Source: a virus
IMG/VR virus record: IMGVR_UViG_3300044953_000546
Location: 1-43,782 of that record
Direction: 5' to 3' (one strand)
Length of the DNA: 43,782 nt
Of the stretch, positions 2,631-43,667 are shown in pieces (position 1 is the first letter of the stretch; each line of letters opens with the position of its first letter). Position numbers and translations under genes: made by a program. The notes below the pieces were generated by a model, which had not been told where the DNA came from, did not search any database, and saw nothing but the letters and a program-made list of their open reading frames with translations.

Positions 2631-3201
2631 TTTTTAATTCCTTGTAGGCATTGGTTGTTCTAGCTGCCATGTAAACCGACAACGCATCGTACACGTGTTC
2701 ATTCTTTCCTTCCAGCACTTGTCCTCTTTTTCCCTTTACCCAGCCGTTAAAATCTGGGAACAGGGTTTTTACCGAAGCCTTGACATCTTGCTTGGAGGCT
2801 GCTGTACTGCCGGTGGCAGCCCTTTTTGCCTCAAACGGAGTGACTAGGGTGGCAGGTATCTTTAATCCGTCGACAACAGCGCATGCAGCCCCTCTGGCAA
2901 TTGCCATGCTCTTGGCAGCTTGTGCGCTTTTGGATGCCCCTGTAGGGCACTCTATAAATATATGGCATGGAGCGTGCTCCATGAGGATCTTTTTAAACGC
3001 CTGAGCAAGCTCTGTCGTTCTACGCCATTCATCGTCTGCTACTCGCATCTTGGTCTTCTTAAGTTGCACCTTGTCAGTCTTCTCTGTGTGGATGGTATCC
3101 ACAAAAAGCAGTCTGTCTTGGTCAAGACCTACAGAGATAACTGCAACCCCTGTATTGGCGAGGGCGAGATCCCAGCAGATGATGGTAGGCGCACTAGTCA
3201 T
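2611..3201 (-). CDS. RuvC-like Holliday junction endonuclease
   Basis: Predicted RNase H-fold resolvase that would cut Holliday junctions formed during recombination-dependent replication, or debranch DNA before packaging. Visible motifs fit the RuvC family: an Asp in the first strand (ICWDLALANTG, D11), a Glu in strand four (IFIECPTGAS, E84), and the C-terminal pair EHVYDALSVY (E168, D172). The 196-residue length is near that of bacterial RuvC (about 170). The start codon overlaps the upstream stop codon. Phage RuvC-like nucleases vary in substrate preference, so the exact activity is inferred. Confidence 0.85.
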   Translation of the reverse strand: MTSAPTIICWDLALANTGVAVISVGLDQDRLLFVDTIHTEKTDKVQLKKTKMRVADDEWRRTTELAQAFKKILMEHAPCHIFIECPTGASKSAQAAKSMAIARGAACAVVDGLKIPATLVTPFEAKRAATGSTAASKQDVKASVKTLFPDFNGWVKGKRGQVLEGKNEHVYDALSVYMAARTTNAYKELKNDRNYK

Positions 3202-3623
3202 TAGTTCTTAGTGTCTTCGTTCTTATGATCTCCGGAGTTATCGTCATTGTCAATTTCGAAGTCATCAGATTCCGGCATTTTGAGCAGTTTGTCTATCGGG
3301 GGCATATTAAATGAAATAAAAGGCGTAGCTCCTAAGTCACAGCCCATAATCTTTGTGATCGAAATGTCGGAGCTTTGACTCTTATCCTCCATCTTTGCAG
3401 ATATAGGCTTCGGGGGAGAGACCTGCATAGCGATCTCCATCAACGCAGTTGGATCAATCTTGGAGTCAAACACCGTGATGGGCTTAATGAGCAGCCATAT
3501 GCGGCTCCCTGTAACGGGAATTCCAAAATAGACTACTTGATCTCCCAGAATCTCCTTTCCAACTACATAACCGAGAGCATTTTGTTCATTGACAGCAAAC
3601 TTTCCAATTAGATCGTCTTTCAT
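3201..3623 (-). CDS. Hypothetical protein, 140 residues
   Basis: Unknown family. The N-terminal 60 residues have the hydrophobic beta-strand pattern of a small barrel or SH3-like fold. The last 30 residues are strongly acidic (runs of Asp, Glu and Asn) and probably disordered, a tail type also found in single-stranded DNA binding and DNA-mimic proteins. AGGA precedes the ATG by five bases. It overlaps neighbours on both sides by one to four bases, so it belongs to the same operon as the RuvC-like gene. Confidence 0.65.
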   Translation of the reverse strand: MKDDLIGKFAVNEQNALGYVVGKEILGDQVVYFGIPVTGSRIWLLIKPITVFDSKIDPTALMEIAMQVSPPKPISAKMEDKSQSSDISITKIMGCDLGATPFISFNMPPIDKLLKMPESDDFEIDNDDNSGDHKNEDTKN

Positions 3624-19118: not shown

Positions 19119-21998
19119 TTACTTCATGTGCTTGGCCAGAACAGGATACTGAGCTACATCCCCGGAAGTCAAGGGTTCGCTCCAACGAATGCACACTTCC
19201 GAATCAATGCCAAGCACTAAATCACTGCCAGGAATGGTGCATTTTTCACACATTGCCAATCTCATAACCTCCAATGTCTCATCAACCTGCTCTACAGGGC
19301 AAGTGACTATGATTTGATCGTGAACACTCATTACAACTCTGTACTGAAGATGAGGCCTTTCGACTTCGCGGATCATGTACAGATTCACCAAAGCTAGTGA
19401 CATGAGGTCGCCCACCGTACCTTGAATCGGGGCATTCATAGCCTGTCGCTTTTGGTGAGCCAACAGTTCATTATCCTCCGTGTGCTCAAATCGACGACGT
19501 CGACCAAACCCATTCTCAACATATGCCTGGCTGGACACCTTCTCTTGCTGCGAGATCAGCCAATGTGCAAGCTGAGGAAAAGTCTCTTTAAACTTGTCCA
19601 CAGATTGCTGAGCTTCCTCCAGCGTGATGTTGATGCCTTCGGCATATACCGCTTCTTTGATGGCTGCTGCGCCACGACCATACGCAATTCCGAACGTGAT
19701 AGTTTTCGCAATTGTCCTGTACTTTATGTTCCCGCTTTCCTTAAGCCAGTCTTTCTTGCCTTTGGGGTAATCCACTGGTGGCTGATCCAAACGGAACATC
19801 TCTATGGCAACTTCGGAGTGGAAGTCCGAACCAGGATCTCCAAGCTTTTGTTGCATATTGGTATCTCCGGATAGCCAGGCCATAACAAACAACTCTGCCT
19901 GTACCCAATCACAGTCCAGCAGCACCCAACCTGGATCCGCACGGAAACAAGAACGGATGGGTGGAATCTGCTGATTGGTGTCTTTGAAAGCCTTGCTGAC
20001 CAAATCTTCGGCAGTCTTTGGAAGCTGAGCCATATTGGGATCGGAGTGCCCATATCGCCCGGTTTCTACAGTCTGTCGAATGCGAGTATGCACCCTGCCA
20101 TCGCTCCACAGCTTAGGTAAGATACCGCCTTCCACCTTGTGCCCGCCCGTAACCGGATCGTCACCGAACTCGCCGGTGAAAGTCTTTACGGTCTGAGCTA
20201 CGGCCGTGTACAGCAGCATAGTGTTGAGCAGCTGATTGTCTTTGTGCTGTAGCAGCAGACCGGTCAGTACCGACCTGTCGGTAGATGGAGTATAACTGGC
20301 CATCTTGTCAGGGGTCTTAATGAGATCTGCCCATTTCTTGTCATTTGTTGCCTTGATAGGCTCAAATTTGGCAAGAGTAGCGGTATTGGGAAAGCTAGGC
20401 TTGCTGCCTTGCTTTACCCACCCGAACAAAGCTGCAGCTTTCTGCACCGGAGAGTCGGGATTAAAATCAGGCCAAGACAACATTGCCCTAAGAGACTCCG
20501 CCAACTCAGTACGTTTGTAGGTGTACTTATGGGACAAGAGCTCTAGGCGCTCTCTATCTACATTCATACCCGTCATCTCTATTTCAAGAATGGGCAAAGT
20601 GGTAGGCATGACCACATTCTCAAAAAGATCTTTGATCTTTTCGTTTTCTGGCTTCATCATTTCCTGATACTGAATCAGAAATATTCGGAAAGTGGCATCT
20701 GCGTCCTTTGCAGCGTAAGGCAACAAAATATCGTCAGGTATGCCTCCGTAGCCAAGCTCATCTACATCGTACTTGTTAGCTTTGATCCAGTTTGTGAGTT
20801 CCAGTTCGTAGCGACCCATTTGGGTATGACGAGCAGTATATATTTCAAGACCTTGATCCCAATTCTCATCCAACAAGTGCCCCGCTAAAGCAGTATCCCA
20901 ACCTCTGAGAACAGGAACAGTGATATTTATGCCGTTGTGTTTCAGCCACGGCAAGTCCGCTCTGATAAAGTGGCCTATGAGTCTAGTTTTGCCGTTCTCA
21001 ACAAACTTCTTTATCAGTTGCCAAGCTTGTTGTGGGTTTTGCCCTATATCCGTTGGTTGTAAATTTGCAAAATTAAACACAATAACTAAAACTTTGCCTG
21101 GAGCCCAGCTGAACTGAAGACAGCGGAGAGATCCGGATAAGTGATTGCCTCCGCCCCACTCACAATCAACTGCAACCCATTCACTGTATTCCTGCTCAAT
21201 CCGATCAAGGTAGCGCTCCAGCTGATCAGGAGAAAACACACAATGATAGTCAATGCGGGTGTCATCCTCGACCGTTACCTTATTATTAGCCAGCTCATTA
21301 GCAATCCGACTCATGTCCATAGCGATTGCGCCCCGAACTTCAGGCATATGCATAATTGCTGAAAAGTCAGTCATGATTGCCGTCTTAATTCCTAATGGGC
21401 TCTCCTCAGCAGACATGGTTCTGTTCTTGTACTTATCGACAGTGGCTTTGGCGCCAAGAACTGCCTTCAAAGTTTTTGCTCCAAGCAGAATGACTAGATC
21501 CGGATTTACCGTCTCTAATTCACGCTTGAATAAAGGAGCATACTCTTGTACTAATTCCTTGGGTATGGAGGTCTTCTTACCGTCCACATATTGTTTTACA
21601 TAAGTAGTGTAGTAGCAGTCGTTTACAGGAAACGATGTTTTTTTCACCAAATCTTCAAACTCAGCAACCCAGTCTCCCATGTACAGTCGAGCATTGGAAT
21701 CCTCTTTAAAGTTAGGCCAGCACCCTACAAACATGATTCGCTTGCGGCGAGGTCCTACTACAGCAGATCTCTTACCAGGATTGGCGGGTGCAGCTTGCCC
21801 AAACACGGAGTCCAGGTGGATTCCGGGAATGATTTTGATTAGCATAAATTTACCGCTGTCTCCGTTAAAAATTACGTTGCTTGTTTGGTTGAGCATTTCC
21901 TCAAATGAAAACTCAATTCGTTGACCGTATTGCTCGGCCCTAAGAACTGCTATGGACCCGTACTTTTTAATTTTTTCATCAACTGTTTTGATAGGCAT
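19119..21998 (-). CDS. DNA polymerase: UDG-like domain + 3'-5' exonuclease + family A polymerase
   Basis: Replicative polymerase of the phage. Residues about 85-205 resemble the uracil-DNA glycosylase fold (RIMFVGCWPNF, VNDCYYTTYVK, VNPDLVILLGAKTLKAVLG). Residues 270-445 are a DEDD exonuclease with D278-x-E280, D348 in GHFIRADLPWL, and Y428-xxx-D432. The polymerase domain has motif A D697-W-V-Q-A-E702, motif B R761...K765...F769...Y773G, and motif C VHDQ (H893, D894, Q895), where family A enzymes usually have VHDE. No 5'-3' exonuclease domain. 959 residues. The UDG-like part lacks a clear catalytic loop and may be structural. Confidence 0.93.
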   Translation of the reverse strand: MPIKTVDEKIKKYGSIAVLRAEQYGQRIEFSFEEMLNQTSNVIFNGDSGKFMLIKIIPGIHLDSVFGQAAPANPGKRSAVVGPRRKRIMFVGCWPNFKEDSNARLYMGDWVAEFEDLVKKTSFPVNDCYYTTYVKQYVDGKKTSIPKELVQEYAPLFKRELETVNPDLVILLGAKTLKAVLGAKATVDKYKNRTMSAEESPLGIKTAIMTDFSAIMHMPEVRGAIAMDMSRIANELANNKVTVEDDTRIDYHCVFSPDQLERYLDRIEQEYSEWVAVDCEWGGGNHLSGSLRCLQFSWAPGKVLVIVFNFANLQPTDIGQNPQQAWQLIKKFVENGKTRLIGHFIRADLPWLKHNGINITVPVLRGWDTALAGHLLDENWDQGLEIYTARHTQMGRYELELTNWIKANKYDVDELGYGGIPDDILLPYAAKDADATFRIFLIQYQEMMKPENEKIKDLFENVVMPTTLPILEIEMTGMNVDRERLELLSHKYTYKRTELAESLRAMLSWPDFNPDSPVQKAAALFGWVKQGSKPSFPNTATLAKFEPIKATNDKKWADLIKTPDKMASYTPSTDRSVLTGLLLQHKDNQLLNTMLLYTAVAQTVKTFTGEFGDDPVTGGHKVEGGILPKLWSDGRVHTRIRQTVETGRYGHSDPNMAQLPKTAEDLVSKAFKDTNQQIPPIRSCFRADPGWVLLDCDWVQAELFVMAWLSGDTNMQQKLGDPGSDFHSEVAIEMFRLDQPPVDYPKGKKDWLKESGNIKYRTIAKTITFGIAYGRGAAAIKEAVYAEGINITLEEAQQSVDKFKETFPQLAHWLISQQEKVSSQAYVENGFGRRRRFEHTEDNELLAHQKRQAMNAPIQGTVGDLMSLALVNLYMIREVERPHLQYRVVMSVHDQIIVTCPVEQVDETLEVMRLAMCEKCTIPGSDLVLGIDSEVCIRWSEPLTSGDVAQYPVLAKHMK

Positions 21999-22010: not shown

Positions 22011-22295
22011 TCAAGCTGGCTCTATAGTGCACGTGAGAAACTGACACTTAAACTGTTCCTGCAGGAGCTCAGCGTGTTCCTTATGGGTTGTCGCTACAAT
22101 CGACAAACCTTTCTTATCAACTTCCGTTGTCTTCTTGAGCGCAGTCGCGGCGTCTAAATTTACTAGCCGCATAAGGATGGCTATTACATCATCATACGTG
22201 TGTACGTCATCATTATGCACAATGACATTCCATTTCTTTAAACTACTGGTTTTAGGGGGTGCGATCATTGGGGTAGTTGCGTTTTGATTAGACAT
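22011..22295 (-). CDS. clpS: ClpS-like adaptor for Clp protease
   Basis: Resembles ClpS, the adaptor that delivers N-degron proteins to ClpA-type ATPases. After a 20-residue disordered start, which in ClpS enters the ATPase pore, the core follows the family order: WNVIVHNDDVHTYDDVIAIL (NDD at 28-30, contacting the substrate amino group), ALKKTTEVDKKGLSIVATTH, and the terminal strand LTCTIEPA. Length 94 is near E. coli ClpS (106). The conserved substrate-contacting His (HxxG) is Asp here (D60 in VDKKG). The start overlaps the stop of the primase gene by eight bases, so it is made with the replication proteins. Confidence 0.85.
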   Translation of the reverse strand: MSNQNATTPMIAPPKTSSLKKWNVIVHNDDVHTYDDVIAILMRLVNLDAATALKKTTEVDKKGLSIVATTHKEHAELLQEQFKCQFLTCTIEPA

Positions 22296-23418
22296 TTGTG
22301 TTTTTTTCTTTGTTGATTACTGCTTTCATAAGTTCCGAGGTTGTCATGCTGGCTGGGTCTTTGCCTTTAGGTAGCTCAACCGCAAGACAGCCTTTTGCAA
22401 CCTTTTCATTAAGCCTTGTTATCACATTAAAAATACGTTTGTTCAGGGCCGCCTCATGCTCGACCATGAATAATATCTGACCATTCTTGAACATGCTTGC
22501 CAGCAGCTCTTCCTGCATGGGACGGGGATACATGCCAAATGTACACACGCCCGCAAATCCACAGGCGATTGCAGAAAGCGCACCCTCGCAGACAATACAA
22601 AAATCCCCATTGGTAAATGACTTTGCGGCCTCAAGTCGATAGACGCTGGAGCTGAAGGAGTACCCAGGGGCATTTAAATACTTTTGTATGACTGGTTTTC
22701 CGGAGTTGGGATCTTTAGGAATATCTCCTATATACCTAGCCATCCAACCCTGCCATACCCCTTGTTGAACATTTGGAATGATCAATCGGTTCTGAGGTGT
22801 GATTATATGCCATTGACCGCCAGAGTCTGTAAATCGCTTTTGCCACGGGCTTTTACTGCAGTAACAAAATTGATACTCGTTTGCTAATAGATTGATATCC
22901 GTAAAATTCCTTGATATCAAGTACTGAATAACGGGATGATCCTGCTCCAGTTGATTGATTGGGACTAGATCCTCAACCGGACCAGGCAACTCCATTCTTC
23001 TGACATCGGCATCCATGCCGGTCTTGAGATCCTCCGACTTCTGCTCTATTCCAGGATCGTAGTCTGTGCCAAACAGGACATTCCACAGGTCTCCCCAATA
23101 GCAACTCTCGTTGTGACACTTCACGCACGAGAACAATTTTTTTCCGGCTTGCTCACAGTAAGTGCCCCATAGGTGACTGACGTACAGACGAGACCTTTTA
23201 TCATTGCAACGAGGACAATTTACAGCATATGTTTCGCCCCAATTTATAAGGTTTACTCTTTTGGTAGAGGTGTCCAGATTTCCATTTCGAGCCGAAGCCC
23301 AAGCGGCTACCTTATCCTCAACCACGTGATACTTGGCCTCGATCCCCGCATTGGTTACCTGGACCTTTCCGAATTTCTTCTTCAAGGCCTTAAAAAGAGA
23401 TTCGTTTATGTGCTTCAT
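22288..23418 (-). CDS. DnaG-like DNA primase
   Basis: Would make RNA primers for lagging-strand synthesis. It has an N-terminal zinc-binding region (C68PRC71 ... C98VKC101) and a TOPRIM-type catalytic region: VCEGALSA holds the conserved Glu (E278). The second TOPRIM motif, normally D-x-D, reads E320-H-E322 (ILFMVEHEAA). The helicase-interaction domain seems short or absent; at 376 residues it is far shorter than bacterial DnaG (about 580). It overlaps the helicase gene by four bases, fitting a primase-helicase pair. Confidence 0.82.
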   Translation of the reverse strand: MKHINESLFKALKKKFGKVQVTNAGIEAKYHVVEDKVAAWASARNGNLDTSTKRVNLINWGETYAVNCPRCNDKRSRLYVSHLWGTYCEQAGKKLFSCVKCHNESCYWGDLWNVLFGTDYDPGIEQKSEDLKTGMDADVRRMELPGPVEDLVPINQLEQDHPVIQYLISRNFTDINLLANEYQFCYCSKSPWQKRFTDSGGQWHIITPQNRLIIPNVQQGVWQGWMARYIGDIPKDPNSGKPVIQKYLNAPGYSFSSSVYRLEAAKSFTNGDFCIVCEGALSAIACGFAGVCTFGMYPRPMQEELLASMFKNGQILFMVEHEAALNKRIFNVITRLNEKVAKGCLAVELPKGKDPASMTTSELMKAVINKEKNTNV

Positions 23419-42950: not shown

Positions 42951-43667
42951 CTAACGGGAATTATTTACACTACTCTCTGCTGTTTTATAAATCCAAGGTA
43001 ATAGTAGGTCTACTCGCACAGCGGAGTTTTCGTAAACATAATTGCGCCTGCATCCTAACGAGGAAACAATACCAACTATATTCCCCTGCGAATCAAGCAC
43101 TGCACCGCCGGAGTCGCCAAACCATACGGTCCCCTCGTAGCACAGCATTTTTAAATTAAATGGATCTTCGATTAGAGTACCGTAATACCAAAGAATGCCA
43201 AAATTACTACGCTTCCTTATTCCGCCACCGTATCCAACTACGGTAAGATTTTCTCCTCGTATTAAAGATGTGCTTCGTATAGTAACCGAGGGTTCCGCGC
43301 AGGGCTCATCAAGGACTAAAAGGGCAGCATCAACTAACATAATAGAAGACAGCGGATGTATATAAGTTTCTTTAATGCAGTATTTGACTCCCTTAGTTTC
43401 AAACCAATAGGCCTCCGTATTATCCACAACATGCGCAGCAGTAAGTACGTGGGTTGATGAAATTAGAGCCCCGCTCCCTATTATATCCCCGTCGTATTCA
43501 AGAATTTTACCAATCGCAGACGTTTCAGCGTCATCTATAATTTTAAATCCTTTAAGGTATAAAGGCGTTAGTTTTTGGGGAGGCGTAGGTAGGGTTTTCT
43601 CTCCAGCACAGGCTAAAGGCAGCAGTGTTGTAAGTATGAGCAGAAATTGAGTGACAACTCTTTTCAT
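42951..43667 (-). CDS. Secreted trypsin-like (S1) serine protease, 238 residues
   Basis: Predicted extracytoplasmic serine protease. N-terminal signal peptide MKRVVTQFLLILTTLLPLAC, with possible cleavage after ACA; LPLAC is a poor lipobox. The catalytic triad is clear: His in HVLTAAHVV, Asp in MLVDAALLVLDEP, Ser in FGDSGGAVLD. Fold strands GSGALIS and IVGIVSS match the S1 family. It ends at TAG seven bases from the stop of the convergent virion gene. A secreted protease is unusual for a phage and may act on host surface or periplasmic proteins. The ribosome binding site is weak. Confidence 0.8.
   Translation of the reverse strand: MKRVVTQFLLILTTLLPLACAGEKTLPTPPQKLTPLYLKGFKIIDDAETSAIGKILEYDGDIIGSGALISSTHVLTAAHVVDNTEAYWFETKGVKYCIKETYIHPLSSIMLVDAALLVLDEPCAEPSVTIRSTSLIRGENLTVVGYGGGIRKRSNFGILWYYGTLIEDPFNLKMLCYEGTVWFGDSGGAVLDSQGNIVGIVSSLGCRRNYVYENSAVRVDLLLPWIYKTAESSVNNSR

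Follow-up and report, generated by a model that had tools for sequence, protein, structure and literature searches.

A clpS-like gene between the primase and DNA polymerase genes

The window, i.e. the whole 43,782-nucleotide stretch of viral DNA analyzed here, carries on its minus strand a clpS-like gene of 94 codons (22011..22295; ATG at 22295, stop codon ending at 22011), which we annotate as encoding a putative D-type ClpS adaptor given its Pfam match, its AlphaFold2 model and its position in related phages. The coordinates agree with those of the original prediction, which did not state the strand. The same prediction placed the gene between those for primase and DNA polymerase, overlapping the former, and this is the arrangement we find, within what forms a replication operon of the phage. 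The upstream gene (22288..23418, minus strand) encodes a DNA primase (phrog_47), and its end overlaps the clpS start by 8 nt (ATGTCTAA; 22288..22295, minus strand), suggesting that translation of clpS may be coupled to that of primase. The downstream gene, polA (19119..21998, minus strand), starts 12 nt from the clpS stop codon and encodes a family A DNA polymerase (PF00476, PF01612) with an N-terminal uracil-DNA-glycosylase (UDG)-family domain (PF03167) at residues 82-186. In other viral contigs, the same polymerase is adjoined by five close relatives of the ClpS. With related contigs of up to 174-183 kb, the 43.8-kb window is probably a piece of a larger genome.

Elsewhere in the window we found a GroES (Cpn10) gene (60.8 bits) and a gene for a trypsin-like protease (Trypsin_2, 58.6 bits; 42951-43667, minus strand), which had been proposed to act with ClpS, as GroES-like and S1-protease genes, in the control of host proteostasis. 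This proposal is weak, and we set aside a protease/GroES/ClpS module, because the two genes lie ~17-21 kb from clpS and the N-terminus of the protease (MKRVVTQFLLILTTLLPLACAGE) looks like a lipoprotein export signal (LPLAC), so that the enzyme probably acts outside the cytosol. The window also encodes a ThiF/E1-like protein (PF00899; 12927-13466, minus strand), here in a phage genome, and a dATP/dGTP diphosphohydrolase N-terminal domain (PF18909; 13870-14415, minus strand) with a possible link to the nucleotide pool or to base modification.

The product is a ClpS-domain protein

Searching Pfam with the 94-aa product, we obtained ClpS (PF02617) as the sole match, with a score of 61.1 bits (E 9e-17, cut-off 23) over residues 20-83. 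Ten ClpS equivalog models of NCBIfam matched as well, each below its cut-off, and so did PHROG 27368, annotated as 'ATP-dependent protease'. The AlphaFold2 model, built from 7 homologous sequences, has a mean pLDDT of 81 and the element order beta-alpha-alpha-beta-alpha-beta. All 38 Foldseek matches of this model at E <= 0.001 were ClpS (best E 3.4e-6), and VIA realignment gave a Z of 15.0 to M. smegmatis ClpS (1.0 Å over 76 residues) and of 12.5-15 across 25 ClpS entries, with E. coli and Caulobacter ClpS at 13-14. Lower in the ranking were L7/L12 (Z 9.7) and yeast Ubr1 (Z 9.6). Codons 1-20 (22236..22295, minus strand), with a pLDDT of 49-57, form an N-terminal extension predicted to be disordered. 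The N-terminal extension of ClpS is the part engaged by ClpA.

The profile search and the superposition on solved ClpS structures, both suggested as checks by the original prediction, thus bear out its description of the product as ClpS-like. A chance ORF or a member of another small family is ruled out by the Pfam score, Foldseek and VIA, and the C-terminal domain of L7/L12, which has the same fold, by the lack of an L7/L12 Pfam match at E up to 1 and by its Z of 9.7 versus 15.0. Together, the profile, the predicted fold and the gene position indicate that the ORF encodes a genuine ClpS-domain protein.

The substrate pocket and the putative docking face are conserved

Both motifs by which the protein had been recognized, NDD at residues 28-30 and the C-terminal LTCTIEPA, are present. 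For the pocket we used a list of positions based on E. coli ClpS structures, namely N34, D35, D36, T38, P39, M40, V43, M62, V65, H66 and L99 (E. coli numbering). N28-D29-D30 (22206..22214, minus strand) correspond to E. coli N34-D35-D36 in the alpha-amino-binding loop of the pocket, N28 and D29 being invariant in the six intact relatives. Y34 (22194..22196, minus strand) takes the gatekeeper position of M40, and every sequence in our sample with Tyr there has Asp at the position of D60. Alignment with E. coli H66 confirms that the usual pocket His is Asp here (D60; 22116..22118, minus strand), placing the protein in the Asp-type rather than the His66-type subclass. N28, D29, V37, V59 and L87 of the N-degron pocket are all present. 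Of the 11 mapped pocket positions, eight do not vary among the six intact relatives, compared with 28 of 75 core positions (p 0.012), and the clpS genes of the window copy's two closest intact relatives (L013 and L014) differ by 1 nonsynonymous and 11 synonymous changes (p 6e-7), indicating strong purifying selection in this pair.

The face formed by T70-E76 (THKEHAE; 22068..22088, minus strand) is conserved in intact copies as well as in the pocket-less copies described below. It contains E73, the counterpart of E. coli E79, which we take from the literature to be a ClpA contact. E. coli K84 is another such contact; the window ClpS carries Leu (L78) at this position, as do planctomycete ClpS, and this counts against an adaptor function. 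Compared with E. coli ClpS (1R6O, 3O2B), the protein thus shares the fold (Z ~13-14), the NDD motif, the Glu equivalent to E79 and the N-terminal extension, whereas overall identity is ~26% and four residues are replaced (H66 by D60, M40 by Y34, M62 by T56 and K84 by L78).

The Tyr/Asp pocket is shared with cellular ClpS and UBR1/UBR2

Among 78 different cellular ClpS sequences, a sample biased by one search pattern that demanded Tyr or Phe at position 34, the H66 position is His in 61 and Asp in 17. The Asp set comprises Phycisphaerae-type planctomycetes, one Calditrichota member and Rubrobacter; in the window lineage Asp is found in 6/6 intact relatives. A 'Bacteroidia' match (MAG12, L064) is the same ClpS as that of a planctomycete (L060) and was probably misbinned. 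In the cellular sequences Tyr at the M40 position goes with Asp in 12/12 cases, Met, Val or Arg with His in 24/24, and Phe with either partner (37 His, 5 Asp), while phage ClpS with Tyr have Asp in 7/7. The cases counted are not independent of one another, and the Tyr/Asp pair appears in UBR1/UBR2 and in two cellular clades separate from each other.

Human UBR1 and UBR2 (9WBW, 9WBV) align with Asp at the H66 position and Tyr at the M40 position, their ClpS-like N-domain reading NDExHxY ... xxDxxG against NDDVHTY ... EVDKKG in the window ClpS. In UBR1 and UBR2 this is a domain of a ubiquitin ligase of ~1750 residues; the window ClpS, in contrast, stands alone at 94 aa, has no UBR box or RING, and does not qualify as a UBR-type N-recognin, a large E3 ligase. 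We suggest that Tyr34 and Asp60 form one unit of a UBR-like type-2 pocket, the putative link from Asp to N-degron binding coming from the UBR1/UBR2 sequence alignment rather than from a ClpS structure. The original prediction read the His-to-Asp change as an altered pocket, which is mostly incorrect. Given that Asp is normal in chromosomal ClpS of Phycisphaerales, Calditrichota and Rubrobacter and in UBR1/UBR2, the residue is not new to the phage and does not on its own signal a dead pocket, and a phage-specific change is ruled out. This pocket subclass, common to planctomycetes, Rubrobacter/Calditrichota, phages and human UBR1/UBR2, allows the UBR type-2 site to be modelled in a simple bacterial setting.

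Scanning bacterial genomes with the phage profile, we found the nearest cellular relatives in Planctomycetota. The best match, at 55% identity, is a Phycisphaerales ClpS (L059, contig VERO01000011.1), which has the same NDD..TY..EVD pocket, HxExAELLQEQL and TIEP ending and groups with the phage copies; unlike these, it is chromosomal, lying amid ordinary chromosomal genes outside any phage operon. In a tree built on 83 columns, eight planctomycete ClpS join the D-type copies of the phages in one clade (99/90) inside a planctomycete group, and the phage/Phycisphaerales D-type clade is recovered at 100/87 once more phage copies are added; the tree needs four changes between His and Asp. Given this placement, Asp60 most likely came to the phage by inheritance, with a gene of host type, and is not an invention of the phage. 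Three planctomycete genomes (G112, G146 and G073; loci L151, L148 and L149) each carry three clustered ClpS-like ORFs, some with diverged pockets.

ClpS in other phages and a probable host partner

Beside the same polA in IMG/VR records we found ClpS copies 73-74% (L013/L014), 58% (L016/L017/L019/L027) and 44% (L020/L021/L024/L028) identical, and, one gene beyond primase, copies 34% identical (L042-L044). Two records (L015/L022) have two tandem copies and another (L018) a single pocket-less one. clpS is absent from the contigs L023, L025/L026 and L032 of the related group; it is thus dispensable in this phage group, which counts against an adaptor function.

In a collection of named phages, the window protein as query matched a ClpS of 32% identity in 11 records of Pseudomonas jumbo phages; the proteobacterial-type ClpS of Atu_ph07, Phosso and GAP32 were not found with this query, and E. 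coli ClpS as query added these three, Kaldavass and one Vibrio phage. Matches from Acinetobacter phage MD-2021a (CAKLQH020000043.1, L190) were not counted as phage ClpS, since clpS there lies beside clpA and argC and the contig looks like host chromosome. ClpS was captured repeatedly and independently in many phage lineages, generally keeping the pocket of the donor lineage. Several jumbo phages are known to encode ClpS, which likely brings targets to host ClpAP (PMC7824862), and the ClpS of Atu_ph07 is gp708 (PMC6102473); the idea that a phage ClpS feeds ClpAP is therefore already published for jumbo phages. The window ClpS is likewise phage-borne, as in PA5oct, Atu_ph07, Phosso and GAP32 (PMC7824862, PMC6102473), and adds a planctomycete type to the few ClpS known from phages. 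It differs from PA5oct ClpS, which is of proteobacterial type and only 32% identical; PA5oct also has ClpP and a Clp_N protein on board, neither of which was found in the window group. In the open-licence literature we found no paper on an assay of a phage ClpS, on the D-type pocket or on pocket-less copies.

ClpP was not found on 20 related viral records, nor Clp_N in the window or 13 related records, all of which records may be fragments, and we set aside a Clp machine of the phage group's own. Clp_N unfoldases are present in six planctomycete genomes. From the clpS gene alone we infer a planctomycete-like host; a link to such a host, or to a prophage, by way of terminase and primase was discarded, since these have only distant relatives in planctomycete genomes (~25-31% identical) and no adjoining ClpS.

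A putative N-degron adaptor and alternative functions

On balance we consider it probable that the window gene encodes a ClpS adaptor which the phage captured from a planctomycete-like host and which delivers N-degron substrates to host ClpA/ClpC; judged by its sequence, the protein is most likely a working adaptor of this kind. The clpS product would be made along with the replication proteins, and its THKEHAE face would dock on the unfoldase of the host, ClpA/ClpC, at the N-domain. The proteins that it presents there would be those beginning with a bulky, hydrophobic residue. Their free amino terminus would be bound by Asp60 together with Asn28 and Asp29, in the place that His66 takes in E. 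coli, and Tyr34 would line the pocket entrance, as it does in the N-domain of UBR1/UBR2. In consequence, additional N-degron substrates, or a biased set of them, would reach the host protease while the phage replicates, be they host or phage proteins. With docking and delivery of this kind, the effect could run either way, toward more degradation or toward blocking.

Blocking is the essence of a second, unlikely reading, according to which the phage ClpS fills the N-domains of host ClpA/ClpC, outcompetes host ClpS, blocks degradation and shields phage proteins. ClpS inhibits degradation of ssrA-tagged substrates by ClpAP. What speaks for this reading are the pocket-less copies. In L015:2772-3490 (contig 3300020220_002918) and also in L022:419-1137, an intact copy is followed in tandem by a pocket-less ORF just upstream of polA, and in L018:3206-3490 the pocket-less ORF occupies the same place alone. 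In the pocket-less proteins 0 of the 8 conserved pocket residues are kept in both copies (NDD is changed to NRD or SRD, and VD to WK or FK), yet 17 of 20 other conserved positions are retained, including THKEHAELL with E73/A75/E76 (p 5e-5). They score 16.3 and 13.6 bits, under the Pfam ClpS cut-off, and one of them was modelled as ClpS with a pLDDT of 86.6. A separate loss of the pocket has occurred in the ClpS of GAP32 (NDD to NTA, His to K). The window copy, however, retains its pocket, and purifying selection acts on the intact copies closest to it. Thus the option of an inhibitor, raised in the original prediction, is not favored for the window protein and is live for the pocket-less paralogs, which are candidate ClpA/ClpC decoys or else decaying duplicates kept open by their place in the operon. 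We regard as doubtful, though a shade less so than a decoy role for the window protein, a two-part scheme in which the intact Asp/Tyr ClpS, its pocket being the counterpart in bacteria and phages of the UBR1/UBR2 type-2 site, would deliver N-degrons while the pocket-less twin would dock empty as an anti-Clp decoy. The twins yield the testable claim that some phages block ClpA/ClpC with ClpS mimics, and together with the UBR-like pair they most deserve further attention. In GAP32 (L188:1821-2354) and Kaldavass (L219:582-1115), the ClpS domain belongs to a 177-aa protein that is extended at both the N- and the C-terminus and in which NDD is eroded.

It is quite improbable that the Asp/Tyr pocket reads N-terminal residues other than those read by a His/Met pocket and so redirects degradation to new substrates. 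Y34, T56 and D60 do depart jointly from E. coli M40, M62 and H66, but chromosomal planctomycete ClpS carries the same residues, so that the host would already have such a specificity, and UBR1/UBR2, which also have this pair, recognize N-terminal residues of the classical type 2 (for the domain class see, e.g., PMC4447728).

Between L013 and the pocket-less L018, clpS shows 47.6 nonsynonymous and 14.4 synonymous differences, with a dN/dS of ~0.9 on the pocket-less branch, not significantly above 1, while the ratio for polA in the same pair is 20 to 61, with a dN/dS near 0.09 (p 4e-10). Positive selection on the pocket-less copies was rejected, the dN/dS of 2.45 between L015b and L018 resting on only 26 differences (p 0.31 versus neutral). 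The rate on the pocket-less branch and the patchy presence of clpS among related contigs would suit a captured passenger gene that survives between the primase and polymerase genes as a coupled ORF, its ClpS activity unselected, and decays in some lineages, but the strong purifying selection between L013 and L014, the independent captures in many phage lineages and the occurrence of D-type clpS in unrelated contexts make this highly improbable. The phages L201-L205 have such a different gene context, and their close D-type ClpS (at ~2998-3276) shares 64-65% identity with that of L016.
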